Positions 2 through 10,016 of a stretch of 64,000 nucleotides of DNA are shown here, one piece after another. The notes beneath the pieces are model-generated. The model searched no databases and was not told where the DNA came from. It saw only the letters and a program-made list of their open reading frames with translations. Position numbers and translations under genes: made by a program. Position 1 is the first letter of the stretch. Each line of letters opens with the position of its first letter. Origin of the DNA: Beijerinckiaceae bacterium. GTDB lineage: Bacteria; Pseudomonadota; Alphaproteobacteria; Rhizobiales; Beijerinckiaceae. Location of the stretch: the NCBI GenBank assembly GCA_947453205.1, contig CANGFT010000011.1, forward strand, positions 1 through 64,000, given 5' to 3'.

Positions 2-3000
2 ACCTCTGCCCAGGCCAAGGCCCTGAGCACGGAACAGCTCTACGCTTTCAGCACATCGCAGGTGCGCGCCATTGAGACCAAAGATCTCAATAATATGACC
101 TCCGATCAAATACAGGCGCTGTCCTTCGCACAGATCGCCAGCCTGACGACCGACCAGATCACAAATCTCGTCCTTAACCTTGTCCAGAATCTCAAAGAAT
201 CGCAAATCGCATCGCTGATCACCGACCAGATCCTCGCCTTGAAGACCAGCCAGATCGAAAAGCTTTCGACGAGCCAGGTCGACACGCTGTCGCAGGTTCA
301 GATGAGGGCCTTCACGAGCCAGCAGATCCGCGCCCTCACCACGTTCCAGACCAAAAACCTCCTGGCGTCACAGATCCGGGGCCTGACCGCCGACCAGATC
401 GTGGGTTTGACGCCAGACCAGATCACCGTGCTTGGCACACAGCAGGTGGTCTATCTGACCTCATCTCAGATCACCAATTTCTCAACCGATCAACTGGTCG
501 CGCTCGGGACGAACATTGGATCGCTTAATCCCAACTTCATCTCGGGATTCTCGGGTTATCAGATCGCCGCTCTGACAAACGATCAGGTCAAGGCTTTCAA
601 TACCGCTCAGGCCGCCAATCTGACCACCGCCCAGATCGCCGCTCTGACCACCGCGCAAGTCAACGCGATGGAGACCTCAGACCTCCTGGTCATGTCTAAT
701 GCTCAAATCAATGCGCTGGCGACTGACCAACTCCGCGCGCTCAAAACCGATCAGATTGCGAGCCTGCTCACCCGGCAGGTCGCAGGCATGACGACGCGTC
801 AGGTCTCAGCCCTGAAGACCGATCAGATCGTCGCGCTCGGCTCGACGGATATCCCCGCCTTGAGCGCTGCGCAGATCATCTCCCTTTCGGCTGAGCAATT
901 CGTCGCGCTGGACACCAGCCAGATCGCTGCGCTGACAACCCAACAGGCGGCCGCGCTGACGAATGATCAGGTCGCGGCGATGACGACCACGCAGATCACG
1001 GCCATGGAGACGCAGGATCTCCAGGCGGTGAAGACGGTTCAACTGACCAGATTGCAGGCGGACCGCATCGCCGCCTTGAGCACTTTGCAAGCGGCCGCGC
1101 TCACGCTGCCCCAGGTCTCCGCATTGACCCTCGAACAGATTAAAAGCCTCGGCGCTGGAAACATCGCCGCCATGTCGACGGCGCAGATCGCCCGCATGAA
1201 CACGGATCAGATCGCCACCCTGTCGACTCTCCAGATCCAGAATCTGCGCACAGATCAGGTGGCGAACCTTGCGGTGCGGCAGGTGAGCGCTCTTAGCGTC
1301 AAGCAGCTCGCAGCCCTGAATACGGATCAGATCGTCGCTCTCAACTCCAGCCAGATCATGGCGCTTGACACCGACCAGATCCTCGCGCTCACAACCACAC
1401 AGGCCGAGGCCCTCAAATCCGAGCAGGTCGCCGCCATGAAAGCGGCTCAACTCGCAGCCCTTACGACGGCGCAGTTCTATGCCCTCAAGAGCGAGGACAT
1501 GCAGGGGCTGAACTACATCCAGATCGCTGCGCTGAGAAATGATCAGCTCGCCGTGCTCCGCACAGGGCAAATCGACGCGCTGAAGACCAACCAGGTCGCG
1601 GCGCTCACGGCAAGCCAGATCCCGAGCCTGACCGAGGAACAAATCAAAGCTCTGAAAACAAGCACGATTTCGTTTATGAAACTGGACCAGATCGCGGCGC
1701 TGACAGATGCTCAGGTCACGGCGCTGACCACGGGCCAGATATTCGCCATGACGGGAGGCCAACTGTCTGGCCTCACGAACATCCAGATCGGCGCTCTTCA
1801 GTCTCAGCAGATCGCGGCTATCGATACGGACATTCAGTCGATGAAAGCGAGCCAGATCGCCGCCTTCTCCACTGATCAGATCCGCGCGCTCGGAACTGGC
1901 CAGATCGCGGTCTTGACCGCCCTGCAGATCTCGCGGCTCAGCAACGAACAGGTCACCGCGCTGGAGACGGCTGACATCAAGGCCATGTCGTCTGTCCAGA
2001 TCCGGTCGCTGCTGCCCAACCAGGTGGGCGCCCTGACGACGGAGCACATCCAGACGCTGGGTACGGCGGGCGTCCAGTGGCTCAAGACCAGCCAGATCAC
2101 CGGCTTGACGGCTGAGCAGATCAAGTCGCTGAGCACGGCGCAGATCCAGGCTCTGCAAACGGATCAGTATGCGGCCTTGACCGGCGTCCAGCTCGCGTCG
2201 CTGACCACCACGCAGATCGAGAAGCTGGAGTCGCTCGATATCCAGGCCATCAAGTCGCGCCAGATAAAGTCGCTGACAGGCGAGCAGATCAACGCCTTCA
2301 CCACGACGCAGATCCGGCAGTTGATGACGGCCCAGACCGCTGCGCTCACCTCGGATCAGATCACCGCGCTGAACACGGCTCAGACGCAAAGCCTGTTCAC
2401 AAACCAGGTCGCCTCATTCACCTCGGTGCAGATCGCGGGTCTCGAAATCAGCGATCTCGCCGTGATGAAGAGCGACCAGGTCAATGCGCTTCAGACGAGC
2501 GCAGTGAAGAGCTTCTCCATCGATCAGATCGCCGGATTGACTTCGGCTCAGATCGCCGGCCTCAACCTCTCGCAGATACAGGCTCTCAACGCTATTCAGA
2601 TCGGCGCCATTGAAACAGCCGACCTGAGAAGCTTCACGACCACACAAATCAACTACCTGAAGACCGCGCAGATCCAGGCGTTGAGCATCGGACAGGTGGC
2701 CGCTCTCACGAGCACCACCCAGATCCCATCGCTCAACTCTCAGCAGATCGCCGCACTGAGCACCGATCAGATCGGCGCCCTCAGCACGACTTCGATCGCG
2801 AACCTGAAGACAGGCCAGATCCAGGCGCTTGGGGACAAGATCGCCACGCTGCTTCCGGAACAGTTCGCGGCGCTGACCTCTGCGCAGATCCCCGGGCTCT
2901 CGACCTCTCAGATCGTCGCGCTGTCGGTCGATCAGGTGATTGCGCTCACGGTTCCGCAATCAACTGCGCTCAACACCGCACAGGTCCACGCACTGACGAC

Positions 3001-4114
3001 AAGCCAGTTGGTCAGCCTGCAGACCGCCAACATCAATGCATTGGACTCCGCGCAGATCGCCGCCATCGTCAGCGTCAACATCGGGGTCCTTGCAGCCGAG
3101 CAGATCGGGGCGCTGAAGACAGATCAGGTCGCAGCTCTGTCGACCGCTCAGGCTCAGTTCCTGACGTCGTCTCAGATCTCTTCCCTTGGCTCAGCTGGCA
3201 TCAAGGCGCTCAGCACCGACAAGATCAATCTGCTCTCGACGGATACGGTCGCTGCGCTCACCCCGGACCAGATCGCCGCGCTGGCCTCGGCTGCGAGCGC
3301 CGCCTTCACGACCACACAGATCACGGCGCTCACAGCAGAACAGGTTCAGAGCCTTGGGGTCAGCGGAGCCGCGGTCCTCACGTCAAGCCAGCTCAATGTG
3401 ATGTCGACCGATCAGATCATCAGCCTGGATCTGGAGCAGGTCAGCGCCCTCGGCACCAATCAGGTCCGCAACCTGTCGACGGACAGGGTCGCCGTCCTGA
3501 CCAGCCTGCAGATCCCTGGTCTGTCGAGCGCCCAGTTGCGCGTGTTGCAATCGAGCCAGATCAGCGTCCTGACAACCGATCAGATCGCCCTGTTGAACAT
3601 CGATACGCAGCTCAACAAGCTCGATACGGAGCAGCTGGCGGGCCTGCAGTCCGATCAGATCGTGGCGCTGACCACCCAGCAGGTGTCCCAGCTGTCCACG
3701 CTGCAGCTCACGTTGCTCACGACATCGCAGCTGCAATATTTCGAGATGGCCGACATCCAGGTTCTGGAGCCAGACCAGATCGCAAGCCTGTCGACCAGCA
3801 TATCGGCGCTGACCACAGACCAGATCATGGCGCTCACACCCGAACAGATCGCATCGATCAATACGACGCAGTTCACGTCCTTGACCACCGAACAGATCGC
3901 AAACCTGACGGCAGGCCAGGAAAACGTGCTCACCACCAGTCAGATCGCGAACTTGACGACAGACCAGGTCAGGGCCCTTACGGACGACCAGATCCGCCTG
4001 CTGACGACAGAACAGGCGGCCGCCTTGACACCGCTGCAGGTAGGCGCTCTGACGAACCTGCAGAACCAGGCGATGACGGACGACAATCTGGCCGTTCTTG
4101 CAACCCCGGCTTAA
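2..4114 (+). CDS. Giant octapeptide-repeat protein, 5' end outside window
   Basis: The open frame runs in from the window edge, so the true start and N-terminus are missing; GTG at 62 is only the first start-like codon. The visible ~1370 residues are almost wholly about 170 tandem 8-residue units with consensus A-L-x-T-x-Q-I-x (for example ALTTDQIA, ALKTSQIE). Leu/Met/Phe at position 2 and Ile/Val/Leu at 7 are the hydrophobic anchors, Ser/Thr dominates position 4, Gln (sometimes Asp, as in METSDL) position 6. Register slips of one or two residues occur, e.g. at LGTNIGS and LSTSISA. I saw no Cys and very few aromatic residues. Repeats are conserved at protein level but divergent in codons, arguing against recent expansion. 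The Thr-x-x-Gln pattern suits helix N-caps, so a solenoid is likely (inference). It ends in repeats, with no recognisable C-terminal domain. The glycosyltransferase gene follows after 2 nt. Function unknown; a surface or secreted structural protein is my best guess. Confidence 0.9.
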   Translation, partial: TSAQAKALSTEQLYAFSTSQVRAIETKDLNNMTSDQIQALSFAQIASLTTDQITNLVLNLVQNLKESQIASLITDQILALKTSQIEKLSTSQVDTLSQVQMRAFTSQQIRALTTFQTKNLLASQIRGLTADQIVGLTPDQITVLGTQQVVYLTSSQITNFSTDQLVALGTNIGSLNPNFISGFSGYQIAALTNDQVKAFNTAQAANLTTAQIAALTTAQVNAMETSDLLVMSNAQINALATDQLRALKTDQIASLLTRQVAGMTTRQVSALKTDQIVALGSTDIPALSAAQIISLSAEQFVALDTSQIAALTTQQAAALTNDQVAAMTTTQITAMETQDLQAVKTVQLTRLQADRIAALSTLQAAALTLPQVSALTLEQIKSLGAGNIAAMSTAQIARMNTDQIATLSTLQIQNLRTDQVANLAVRQVSALSVKQLAALNTDQIVALNSSQIMALDTDQILALTTTQAEALKSEQVAAMKAAQLAALTTAQFYALKSEDMQGLNYIQIAALRNDQLAVLRTGQIDALKTNQVAALTASQIPSLTEEQIKALKTSTISFMKLDQIAALTDAQVTALTTGQIFAMTGGQLSGLTNIQIGALQSQQIAAIDTDIQSMKASQIAAFSTDQIRALGTGQIAVLTALQISRLSNEQVTALETADIKAMSSVQIRSLLPNQVGALTTEHIQTLGTAGVQWLKTSQITGLTAEQIKSLSTAQIQALQTDQYAALTGVQLASLTTTQIEKLESLDIQAIKSRQIKSLTGEQINAFTTTQIRQLMTAQTAALTSDQITALNTAQTQSLFTNQVASFTSVQIAGLEISDLAVMKSDQVNALQTSAVKSFSIDQIAGLTSAQIAGLNLSQIQALNAIQIGAIETADLRSFTTTQINYLKTAQIQALSIGQVAALTSTTQIPSLNSQQIAALSTDQIGALSTTSIANLKTGQIQALGDKIATLLPEQFAALTSAQIPGLSTSQIVALSVDQVIALTVPQSTALNTAQVHALTTSQLVSLQTANINALDSAQIAAIVSVNIGVLAAEQIGALKTDQVAALSTAQAQFLTSSQISSLGSAGIKALSTDKINLLSTDTVAALTPDQIAALASAASAAFTTTQITALTAEQVQSLGVSGAAVLTSSQLNVMSTDQIISLDLEQVSALGTNQVRNLSTDRVAVLTSLQIPGLSSAQLRVLQSSQISVLTTDQIALLNIDTQLNKLDTEQLAGLQSDQIVALTTQQVSQLSTLQLTLLTTSQLQYFEMADIQVLEPDQIASLSTSISALTTDQIMALTPEQIASINTTQFTSLTTEQIANLTAGQENVLTTSQIANLTTDQVRALTDDQIRLLTTEQAAALTPLQVGALTNLQNQAMTDDNLAVLATPA

Positions 4115-4116
4115 TC

Positions 4117-6282
4117 ATGGAAAAAACACCGGATGTTAAAACCCAACCCCGGAGCCTGAACGAGGTCGCAGGCGACCTCGGCAGAGCTCTGGGATTGCAA
4201 GCGTCAGGACATGCCGAGGAGGCCGTAACCGCCTTCCTCGGCATCATTGCGTCCGAACCTCACAATGTGATCGCCCGCTATTCGCTCGCTTGCGTCCTGA
4301 CGCAGCTGGCCCGGCCCGAACAGGCCCTCGAACATATCAACGAGGCGATACGCGCCAATCCAGTCTTTGCGCCGTCCTATCTGGCGCGCTCGCAGATCCT
4401 GGCTAACATGCGGCGCTTTGATGAATCGATCCGCGACGCCGAAGCGGCGATCCTGATAGATCCTGCGACGGATGGCCTGCTGGCCCATTGGAGCAAGCTC
4501 AGACGTCTATTGCCAGGCCTTCCAGCGCCTTTACAAAATCTTCCCGACATCTTGCAACAGACAGCGAAACTCTCGGAGGATGGACGCGACGCCGAAGCTA
4601 TCGCGCTCTACAGGAAAAGCCTGATCCAGTGCGATCCCGCCTTCATCTATGTCGTCCTTTTCAATCTCAGCGTCATCTATCACAAGCTGGGCTTGCCAAG
4701 TGAAGCAGAGAGCCACCTGTCCGCAGCCATCAAGCTGAAGCCGGACTTCTTCGAGGCTCATCTCAATCTCGGGACCGTCCTTGAGTCGACAGGCAGGAAC
4801 GACGAGGCGCTCGCCTGCTGGCGCGCGGCCCTTGAAGTTCCAAGCGTGAACGAGCCCGACCAACTGCCCAACAAAACGCGGCTCCTGAACAACATCGGTC
4901 GGCTCAATGAGCTGATGCGAAACTATGCCGGGGCTGAACATGCGCTCTACGAGAGCCTGCTGCTCGACATCGACCAGAGCCCGGTTCTGCATCACTGGAT
5001 TCATCTGCGCCAGAAGCAGTGCAAATGGCCCGTCGTCGAGGGCCTGCCGACCGATCTGGAAGCGGTCATGCAGCACGCTTCACCTCTCGCCATGCTCGGC
5101 ATGACCGATGATCCGGCTTTGCAGAGACGCTCGGCGCAGAGATTTGTGGAAGAAAAAGTCGGCGTCTTCGAACGCATGGCGCCGGCCTCGCTGCGTTATG
5201 GCCACGACAAGATCCGCATCGGCTATCTGTCCTCCGACCTGTCCATGCACGCCGTCTCCCTTCTGACGGTCGAGCTCTACGAGACCCATGACCGCTCGCG
5301 TTTCGAGGTCCACGCCTTCTGCTGGAGCAAGGAGGACGGCACGCCCTTCCGCGAGCGTGTGCGCGGGGCCTTCGACCATTTCCACAGGATTGTCGACCTC
5401 GACGACGAGGCCGCAGCCAGGCTCATCCGCGCTCAGGAAATCGACATTCTCGTCGATCTCCAGGGCCTCACCGGAAACGCCCGCCCCAACATTCTCGCGC
5501 GTGGCCCGGCGCCGATCCAGATCGCCTATCTCGGCTATCCCGGCACGACATGCCTGCCCTATGTCGACTATGTCGTGGCCGACCACTTCATCTTCCCCGA
5601 GGAGCTCAAGCCCCATTTCAGCGAAGCCCCGCTCTATGTGGAGACAGGTTTTCAGGTCAGCGATTCCAAGCGCGCCTTTGGCCCACGCCCGACCCGCGCG
5701 CAATTCGGCCTGCCCGAAGACGCCTTCGTCTTCTGCGTCTTCAACAACAGCCACAAGATCACCCAGCCAATGTTCGAAAGCTGGATGCGGATCCTGAGGG
5801 CGAGCCCAAAAAGCGTTCTGTGGCTGCTTGAGGACAATGTCTGGGCGAAAGAGAATCTGCGCCGGGCGGCGGAGCGAAGCGGCGTCGACGTCAATCGCCT
5901 CCACTTCGCCGGACGCATCGATCCGAAGGATTACCTCGCCCGATTCCAGGTCGCCGATCTCTTCCTCGACACAACGCCCTACAACGCGGGCACCACGGCC
6001 AACGACTGCCTCTGGGCGGGCTTGCCGATCCTGACCCTGTCCGGCCGCACCTATGTCTCGCGCATGGCGGGAAGCCTGCTCACGAGCGCGGGCCTTTCCT
6101 ATTTCGTGTGCCATACGCTGGAGCAATACGAAGCCAGAGCCATCCACCTCTCGATTGAACGCAAGGAGGCCGCCGCCGCCTCGGCCGCCCTCGCCCAGCG
6201 CAAGGCGCAGGGCTGGCTCTTCAACACCAGCAATTTCTGCGCGCGGTTTGAAGGCCGCCTGTACGAACTGGTGAACGGCTAG
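4117..6282 (+). CDS. TPR-containing GT41 glycosyltransferase (OGT/SPINDLY-like)
   Basis: 721 residues. The first ~260 contain TPR-like helical pairs (around residues 30-130 and 190-255). A GT41 catalytic domain follows from about residue 365: [10 protein letters not shown] (the His equivalent to the active-site His of human OGT), [28 protein letters not shown] (Lys near residue 547, equivalent to the UDP-contacting Lys of OGT), and [14 protein letters not shown] near 613-626. In many OGTs this last motif reads H-T-T; here it is G-T-T. The family transfers GlcNAc or another sugar from a UDP-sugar to Ser/Thr (or Asn in the HMW1C branch) of proteins in the cytoplasm. ATG lies 2 nt after the stop of the octapeptide-repeat gene, so the two are almost certainly co-transcribed and translationally coupled, making the Ser/Thr-rich repeat protein the obvious candidate substrate. 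Sugar donor and linkage cannot be told from sequence. Confidence 0.9.

Positions 6283-6365: not shown

Positions 6366-10016
<3,651 letters not shown>

Follow-up and report, generated by a model that had tools for sequence, protein, structure and literature searches.

Does a glycosyltransferase whose gene directly follows that of a giant repetitive protein modify this neighbour? The question is raised by the first genes of a 64,000-nucleotide stretch (the window), which comprises positions 1–64000 of contig C11 (CANGFT010000011.1) in the 4.2-Mb genome of a Beijerinckiaceae bacterium. The window encodes a protein built of eight-residue repeats (octads) and, downstream, an enzyme that combines tetratricopeptide repeats (TPRs) with a catalytic domain of glycosyltransferase family 41 (GT41). 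From sequence evidence, the two proteins are likely to be a substrate–modifier pair in which the GT41 enzyme O-glycosylates the octad solenoid before its export. This reading rests on observations of the gene pairing, its conservation, the kept catalytic residues, the sugar and export genes beside relatives and a correlation between octad columns and enzyme clade. The features are as follows.

2–4114, + strand: octad (ALTTAQ, PF20080) solenoid protein, C-terminal 1370 residues (open reading frame, Pfam, lag identity and profile segmentation)
4115–4116, + strand: intergenic gap of 2 nt between the stop codon TAA (4112–4114) and the enzyme ATG (4117)
4117–6282, + strand: TPR-GT41 glycosyltransferase, 721 residues (open reading frame, Pfam, structure matches and model)
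4156–5016, + strand: predicted helical TPR part, approximately residues 14–300 (Pfam and structure model)
5212–6282, + strand: predicted GT-B catalytic part, approximately residues 366–721, with alternating strands and helices
5248–5250, + strand: His378, invariant in 8/8 aligned linked GT41 enzymes and aligned with a conserved OGT histidine
5755–5757, + strand: Lys547, invariant in 8/8 aligned linked GT41 enzymes and aligned with a conserved OGT lysine
Contig C30, locus L035, from 7256 or 7268 to 9067: 5′ part of the octad gene (alignment to ortholog)

Octad protein and its predicted fold

The open reading frame (ORF) at 2–4114 is open at the contig start and contains octads nearly throughout. 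Its self-identity is 33% at a lag of 8 residues and ∼30% at lags of 16, 24 and 32, and all remaining lags up to 31 give 5–10%. Profile segmentation, using a profile trained on the protein itself, assigns 1328 of the 1370 residues to 166 octads with a score of +1528; residue-shuffled versions score negatively in 20 of 20 cases. The protein belongs to the Pfam family PF20080 (ALTTAQ repeat), with 750.2 bits against a cut-off of 26.4 in 51 stretches. The shuffles and the PF20080 score rule out a chance or low-complexity artefact. The regularity resides in the register and in an L...Q[IVL] skeleton with six short breaks. The commonest residues, counted over 166 octads with Leu as column 0, are Leu at column 0 (130), Thr at columns 1 (58) and 2 (81), Gln at column 4 (138), Ile at column 5 (90) and Ala at column 7 (84). 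No two of the 166 octads are alike, and therefore the array is an old one that is kept by its skeleton, which excludes a recent expansion. A preliminary description of this DNA had reported ∼170 near-perfect units with Ser/Thr in nearly every unit. The number and register of the units hold, as does the Ser/Thr content (154 of 166 octads; 303 of 1370 residues overall), but the units are far from perfect copies. By raw count, the 1370 residues contain 9 N-x-S/T sequons.

An AlphaFold2 model of a 160-residue octad stretch, calculated with 30 octad rows (mean pLDDT 98, pTM 0.89), contains one helix of 5–6 residues per octad. The helices mostly start at octad residue 3 and span residues 3–8, which makes column 1 the N-cap position. 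In a Foldseek search of the PDB, mesothelin chains come out best (8cx3; E 1e-3, TMq 0.52), a weak likeness that may be geometric only. The sole close sequence relative in the PDB is HeliScrew4 (9zem; E 1.7e-25 to the window repeat), which is also an octad protein and whose name suggests that it was designed; 9zem is not among the 50 best Foldseek matches listed. The whole ORF additionally gives weak leucine-rich-repeat matches.

TPR-GT41 enzyme

The enzyme gene lies 2 nt downstream of the repeat ORF, as originally noted. Its product belongs to the GT41 family PF13844 (256.3 bits against a cut-off of 25) and carries a TPR_2 match (76.4 bits against 27) on the N-terminal side of the GT-B part. 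In the structure model (pLDDT 82.9, pTM 0.72), helices come first and are followed by an alternating strand–helix part. The enzyme matches OGT, XcOGT and SPINDLY chains with up to 300 bits and resembles OGT and SPINDLY in placing TPRs before GT-B and in retaining the conserved His and Lys residues. By alignment with OGT, His378 presumably has a catalytic role, and Lys547 is taken to act in the catalytic site. The TPR N-terminal domain followed by GT-B is also the domain arrangement of FlmG-type enzymes. Membership of the HMW1C-like N-glycosyltransferases is rejected on the NCBIfam model NF049992 (15.6 bits against a cut-off of 1000), and TPRs are found by Pfam and in the model in place of the HMW1C-like AAD fold.

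Complete octad gene

Contig C30 (47066 bases) of the same genome ends within an open octad frame. In a genome of the same genus (G005), the octad gene is intact, encodes 1970 residues and overlaps the start of a GT41 gene (70% identity). The C30 piece aligns to residues 17–600 of the G005 ortholog (42% identity), and the window piece aligns to residues 601–1966 (47% identity). Because the two pieces align to consecutive parts of the ortholog, C30 and C11 abut inside the octad gene. By this alignment, the complete octad protein is ∼1970 residues long with the repeat almost throughout. The kup gene before the octad gene and the window region 6378–10008 match G005 at 80–81% DNA identity, and in G005, additional genes separate the latter region from the enzyme. 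The length of the octad array is conserved despite the repeat diverging more than the neighbouring genes. Recovery of the 5′ end, which had been sought for a signal peptide, yielded none that is apparent by eye in the C30 N-terminus. Sec export was rejected as a candidate route, since the N-termini of both the C30 piece and the G005 ortholog are unlike a signal peptide as judged by eye. Downstream of the pair, window positions 6366–10016 hold a 1216-residue ORF that by eye resembles fused hydantoinase/oxoprolinase subunits (81% DNA identity to G005).

Co-occurrence of octad and GT41 genes

A profile (A1) built from an alignment of eight linked enzymes, including that of the window, was run on 297 evenly drawn genomes of the order. 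PF20080 is found in 20 of these genomes and a GT41 enzyme above 700 bits in 13, with the next best at 555 bits. All 13 GT41 genomes are among the 20 octad genomes (hypergeometric p 4.5e-18), as are 11 of 11 when the two genomes used in the profile are left out (p 1e-15). Genomic co-occurrence, the point on which the preliminary description had staked the pairing, is thus observed both in and out of sample. Moreover, in 13/13 genomes the octad gene immediately precedes the enzyme gene on the same strand, with a contig break splitting one gene of the pair in G000, G173 and G332. The octad search of this sample scored 24 candidates per genome. It found at least 20 octad matches in 14 genomes, 13 of which are the GT41 genomes; the remaining one, G299, has its listed octad gene cut off by the contig end. 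Six genomes (G157, G186, G234, G284, G293 and G301) have 1–5 octad matches and no GT41 above 700 bits.

An earlier scan of 60 relatives gave 40 GT41 regions. An octad ORF adjoins the enzyme in seven, all among the 11 strongest-scoring regions, and no octad ORF is present at L076, L079, L080 and L082 or at 29 weaker loci. In a phylum sample, GT41 (E ≤ 1e-120) occurs in 15 of 16 octad genomes (E ≤ 1e-8) versus 61 of 398 genomes overall (p 1.7e-12). At >700 bits, 16 genomes carry GT41, and 11 of them are among the 16 octad-bearing genomes. The pair is plainly adjacent in G000, G646 and G665. The sole octad genome without a GT41 at E ≤ 1e-120 is G284; its contig C37 (L221, 3664–16119; L222) contains a 4152-residue ORF with a few octads beside genes that by eye are type III secretion-like (FliQ/FliR-like and SctI/SctJ-like). 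Genomes of the family f90 (for example G388, G423 and G433) have up to 779 first-look octad candidates each and GT41 matches within open frames of >2000 residues. The control genome of Caulobacter vibrioides matches both PF20080 and PF13844.

Among the best 80 loci kept from 564 named relatives, an octad ORF is present in 42, within 500 nt of the enzyme in 36 and on the same strand in 29 of these. The hosts include Duganella, Rugamonas, Roseomonas, Methylobacterium, Azospirillum, Paraburkholderia, Stutzerimonas and Geobacteraceae, and adjacency of the pair extends to Beta- and Gammaproteobacteria and Geobacteraceae. The 38 named loci without an octad ORF include several at contig ends and many from Oxalobacteraceae or Methylococcaceae. 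Several loci have unusual layouts. In Duganella, Rugamonas and kin (L125, L132, L146), an octad gene of >3100 codons precedes GT41; GT2, FdtA and FdtB follow GT41 in such loci (seen in L119), and several have a second or third GT41. Locus L071 (G027) has a 60-codon octad stretch just 3′ of GT41 (6658–6837) and further octads at the contig start. In Candidatus Magnetaquicoccus inordinatus (L180, 7355–14872), an open frame of ∼2500 residues contains GT41, with an octad ORF and RmlA/RmlB-like matches nearby.

In a tree of 157 GT41 rows (L077 and L219 being one gene), the 51 rows linked to an octad ORF within 1 kb require 22 changes of state; the shuffled mean is 43.5, and 0 of 500 shuffles are as low. 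All 51 linked rows belong to one of two clades, A or B, and none is found in the other 39 rows. Clade A (31 rows) has 23 linked rows, three with an octad ORF further off, four near a contig edge and one without. Clade B, which holds the window enzyme, has 87 rows, of which 28 are linked, 17 have an octad ORF further off, 12 lie near an edge and 30 are without.

Octad columns and GT41 clades

Ser/Thr residues were counted per octad column in pattern-fitting octads. Loci with at least 20 octads were kept (57 of 63; L038, L071, L111, L115, L148 and L201 were dropped), separately fetched pieces of one pair were pooled, and L117 and L187, which repeat L071 and L072, were excluded. The median Ser/Thr contents at columns 1, 2 and 3 are 79, 59 and 68% in the 19 loci with clade A only, 55, 88 and 15% in the 26 loci with clade B only and 66, 94 and 82% in the eight loci with both clades. 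The both-clade loci range over 86–100% at column 2 and 77–88% at column 3. Pieces with neither enzyme (C32, C71 and the C30 end of the window's genome, and G284) have medians of 69, 58 and 16%. Column 3 contains at least 52% Ser/Thr in 25 of the 27 clade-A-bearing loci and at most 44% in 26/26 clade-B-only loci. Rank tests separate A from B at columns 3 (p 7e-8) and 2 (p 3e-5), and separate the both-clade loci from A at column 2 (p 9e-5) and from B at column 3 (p 3e-5); these p-values treat related loci as independent, and the grouping was chosen after the first column counts. The window, whose values were computed separately from the 26 clade-B loci, has 64% Ser/Thr at column 2 and 21% at column 3. 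The distinction is also observed within its genus, in which column 3 contains 83–92% in G026 and G008 (clade A) and 21–26% in G005 and the window (clade B).

Export and nucleotide-sugar genes

A search of 156 loci for an ABC transporter and HlyD pair like that of L157 identified 18 loci, 14 of them with an octad ORF (L187 and L072 being one contig). The genes are contiguous in the order ABC-HlyD-octad-GT41 in Methylobacterium sp. Leaf118 (L185) and Roseomonas sp. HF4 (L167), and in the order octad-ABC-HlyD-GT41 in a Burkholderiales metagenome-assembled genome (L110). In these three relatives, Pfam identifies the pair as type I ABC and HlyD proteins.

Of the 47 loci in which nucleotide-sugar gene matches are located near GT41, 29 have an octad ORF in the stretch and 18 lack one; one of the 18, L201, is a piece of a linked pair. 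As sugar genes occur with and without an octad ORF, they are associated with these GT41 loci generally. UDP-glucuronate decarboxylase lies within ∼5 kb of GT41 in eight loci (G246, G101, G222, G318, L175, L176, L181 and L188), accompanied in some by UDP-glucose dehydrogenase. Two of the eight decarboxylases match solved UDP-glucuronate decarboxylase 1 chains with 413–416 and 389–392 bits, and no NCBIfam model reaches its cut-off for these two proteins. The other sugar genes are FdtA/FdtB in Duganella and kin, RmlA/RmlB in L071, L115 and L180, RfbH in L140 and UDP-galactopyranose mutase in L074 and L075. The window's genome has one UDP-glucuronate decarboxylase match, on contig C9 (498 bits, 68%).

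Proposed modification of the octad solenoid

In the proposed mechanism, the octad protein would fold as a thin solenoid with one short helix per octad, and in the cytoplasm, the TPR part of the soluble TPR-GT41 enzyme would bind to it. Many octad helices would then be O-glycosylated by the enzyme at Ser/Thr residues of their first turn. For the clade-B enzyme of the window, the acceptor would most likely be the third octad residue (column 2 in L-T-T-D-Q-I-A-A). The glycosylated rod would be exported afterwards, in some relatives by the adjacent type I ABC/HlyD pair. The donor may depend on the lineage, with UDP-xylose likely at loci that have an adjacent UDP-glucuronate decarboxylase gene and dTDP-sugars likely at those with adjacent Rml or Fdt genes.

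A more specific extension, which we put forward tentatively, is a positional code. Clade A may modify the fourth octad residue, clade B the third and both-enzyme loci both, and the nucleotide-sugar genes of each lineage (UDP-xylose, dTDP-amino/deoxy or CDP-dideoxyhexose) may set the sugar. Hundreds of evenly spaced sugars would thereby be placed on an exported nanorod.

Several findings weigh against a dedicated substrate–modifier pair. The window's genome encodes three further octad proteins (C32, 681 residues; C71, 1010 residues; C4, 228 residues) and one further GT41 on C8, none of which has a partner gene beside it. The unlinked octad proteins contain as much Ser/Thr (C32 22%, C71 25%, C4 21%) as the linked protein (20–22%), so the idea that linked octad proteins are richer in Ser/Thr was rejected for this genome. 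The unlinked proteins could be modified in trans. By the structure model, column 1 Ser/Thr residues are probably structural as helix N-caps. Column and clade lack phylogenetic independence, and two clade-A loci of the window's own genus (L074 and L075, from G002 and G025) break the column rule with 26–28% at column 3. Of the 87 clade-B rows, 30 come from stretches that, as fetched, lack an octad ORF, and another 12 are close to an edge. Most of the octad and GT41 matches listed for the family f90 in the phylum sample are on separate contigs. Four of the 18 ABC/HlyD loci lack an octad ORF, and sugar genes also stand beside GT41 in the 18 loci without an octad label. In the window's own genome, no ABC transporter of the linked subfamily was found with the L072 ABC protein as query (best 251 bits, 33% identity), no HlyD is labelled around its four best ABC genes in a one-seed search, and no sugar gene is seen beside the window's own pair. 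The evidence is all of sequence, with no glycan seen, and we infer catalysis on the repeat, the acceptor, the donor, export and a surface role. Of the original suggestion of a dedicated modifier and substrate, the co-occurrence, the clade–column relationship and the sugar and secretion neighbours fit, but the argument from Ser/Thr density is weak given the equal unlinked proteins and the N-cap position of column 1. By eye, several TctC-like (tricarboxylate-receptor) genes are located near the unlinked octad and GT41 genes of this genome (L037, L038 and L039).

Alternative roles of the GT41 enzyme

That the GT41 enzyme instead modifies another protein, most probably flagellin in the manner of FlmG, the octad protein being a partner or a companion in export, appears rather unlikely. 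FlmG is described as a TPR and GT-B enzyme acting on flagellin before export (PMC7591256). Flagellar-seed matches are found in 10 of the 156 loci, six of them with an octad ORF. These comprise direct pairs in L142 and L143 (Paraburkholderia) and in G318 (L214; FlgE/K/L, FliS and FliD), and octad ORFs further off in L110, L115 and L138; L148 (Stutzerimonas) has FlhF- and FlhA-like genes by eye. The 30 clade-B rows without an octad ORF in the fetched stretch also favour this reading. However, the other 146 loci lack a flagellar-seed match (seeds from one genome), and the flagellar set of the window's genome is on contig C1 (FliP by search, others by eye), whereas the pair is on C11/C30. Flagellin also fails to account for the adjacency in 13/13 order genomes or for the tracking of column with clade.

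A role of the octad protein as a docking scaffold, with GT41 glycosylating a third partner or a surface polysaccharide and the octad Ser/Thr residues being purely structural, is judged quite improbable. The N-cap position of column 1, deduced from the predicted helices at octad residues 3–8, and the equal Ser/Thr content of unlinked octad proteins agree with such a role, and the sugar genes, which also occur beside GT41 enzymes without an octad ORF, could serve a polysaccharide. N-capping, however, leaves the hydroxyl richness of clade-A column 3 unexplained, even within one genus. To our knowledge, TPR-GT41 enzymes of known function modify proteins. FlmG, which shares the TPR and GT-B architecture, modifies a protein (PMC7591256).

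Fortuitous or merely co-inherited neighbours, a reading to which the C32, C71 and C4 octad genes without GT41 beside them might point, are exceedingly improbable in view of p 4.5e-18 in the even order sample and of adjacency in several lineages, in several gene orders and on both relative strands.

Relation to known systems and implications

The components of the substrate–modifier pair are known families. OGT, XcOGT and SPINDLY, which share TPR and GT-B parts and the conserved His and Lys residues with the window enzyme, act on many nucleocytoplasmic proteins; the candidate substrate of the window enzyme, in contrast, is one giant neighbour. In their logic, the nearest counterparts of the pair are HMW1A/HMW1C, FlmG/flagellin and the serine-rich repeat adhesins. 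The latter combine a giant repeat acceptor, GtfA/GtfB and an exporter in one locus, but are Gram-positive with Ser-rich repeats and accessory Sec, whereas the octad solenoid is predicted to be folded and occurs in Gram-negative hosts. In the HMW1A/HMW1B/HMW1C system of Haemophilus influenzae, a cytoplasmic GT41-family enzyme is likewise encoded beside the giant exported protein that it modifies, with N-linkage, an AAD fold and two-partner export (PMC3983070). The window enzyme differs by its TPRs and its score far below the N-glycosyltransferase cut-off, the candidate acceptor by its octad solenoid, and some relatives by adjacent type I genes. FlmG of Caulobacter crescentus resembles the window enzyme by domain architecture; it is a soluble enzyme with a substrate-binding TPR N-terminal domain and GT-B, which modifies flagellin before export with pseudaminic acid as donor (PMC7591256). 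The window enzyme differs in having an octad solenoid neighbour, and UDP-glucuronate decarboxylase, Fdt or Rml genes stand beside its relatives.

Among the matches listed from open-licence PubMed Central literature, which were the best 8–20 of up to 639 per search, the ALTTAQ-GT41 pair, an octad acceptor, the donors suggested by neighbouring genes and the column rule are undescribed, in agreement with the initial statement that no described pair of this type was known. No open-licence paper there was found for ALTTAQ, PF20080 or HeliScrew.

PF20080 proteins, for which no described function was found in the open literature, thus gain a testable role and a partner, in a partnership that spans Alpha-, Beta- and Gammaproteobacteria and Geobacteraceae. 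If the proposed modification is true, the octad proteins would be a dedicated bacterial substrate for TPR-GT41 (OGT-like) enzymes. They would also provide a model for residue choice, in which the acceptor is strictly periodic and two enzyme clades apparently pick adjacent residues. The UDP-glucuronate decarboxylase genes nearby hint that bacterial proteins may undergo O-xylosylation, and protein designers would find periodic glycosylated rods of interest. The recurrence of the pair in distantly related bacteria suggests an undescribed route to sugar-coated protein rods.

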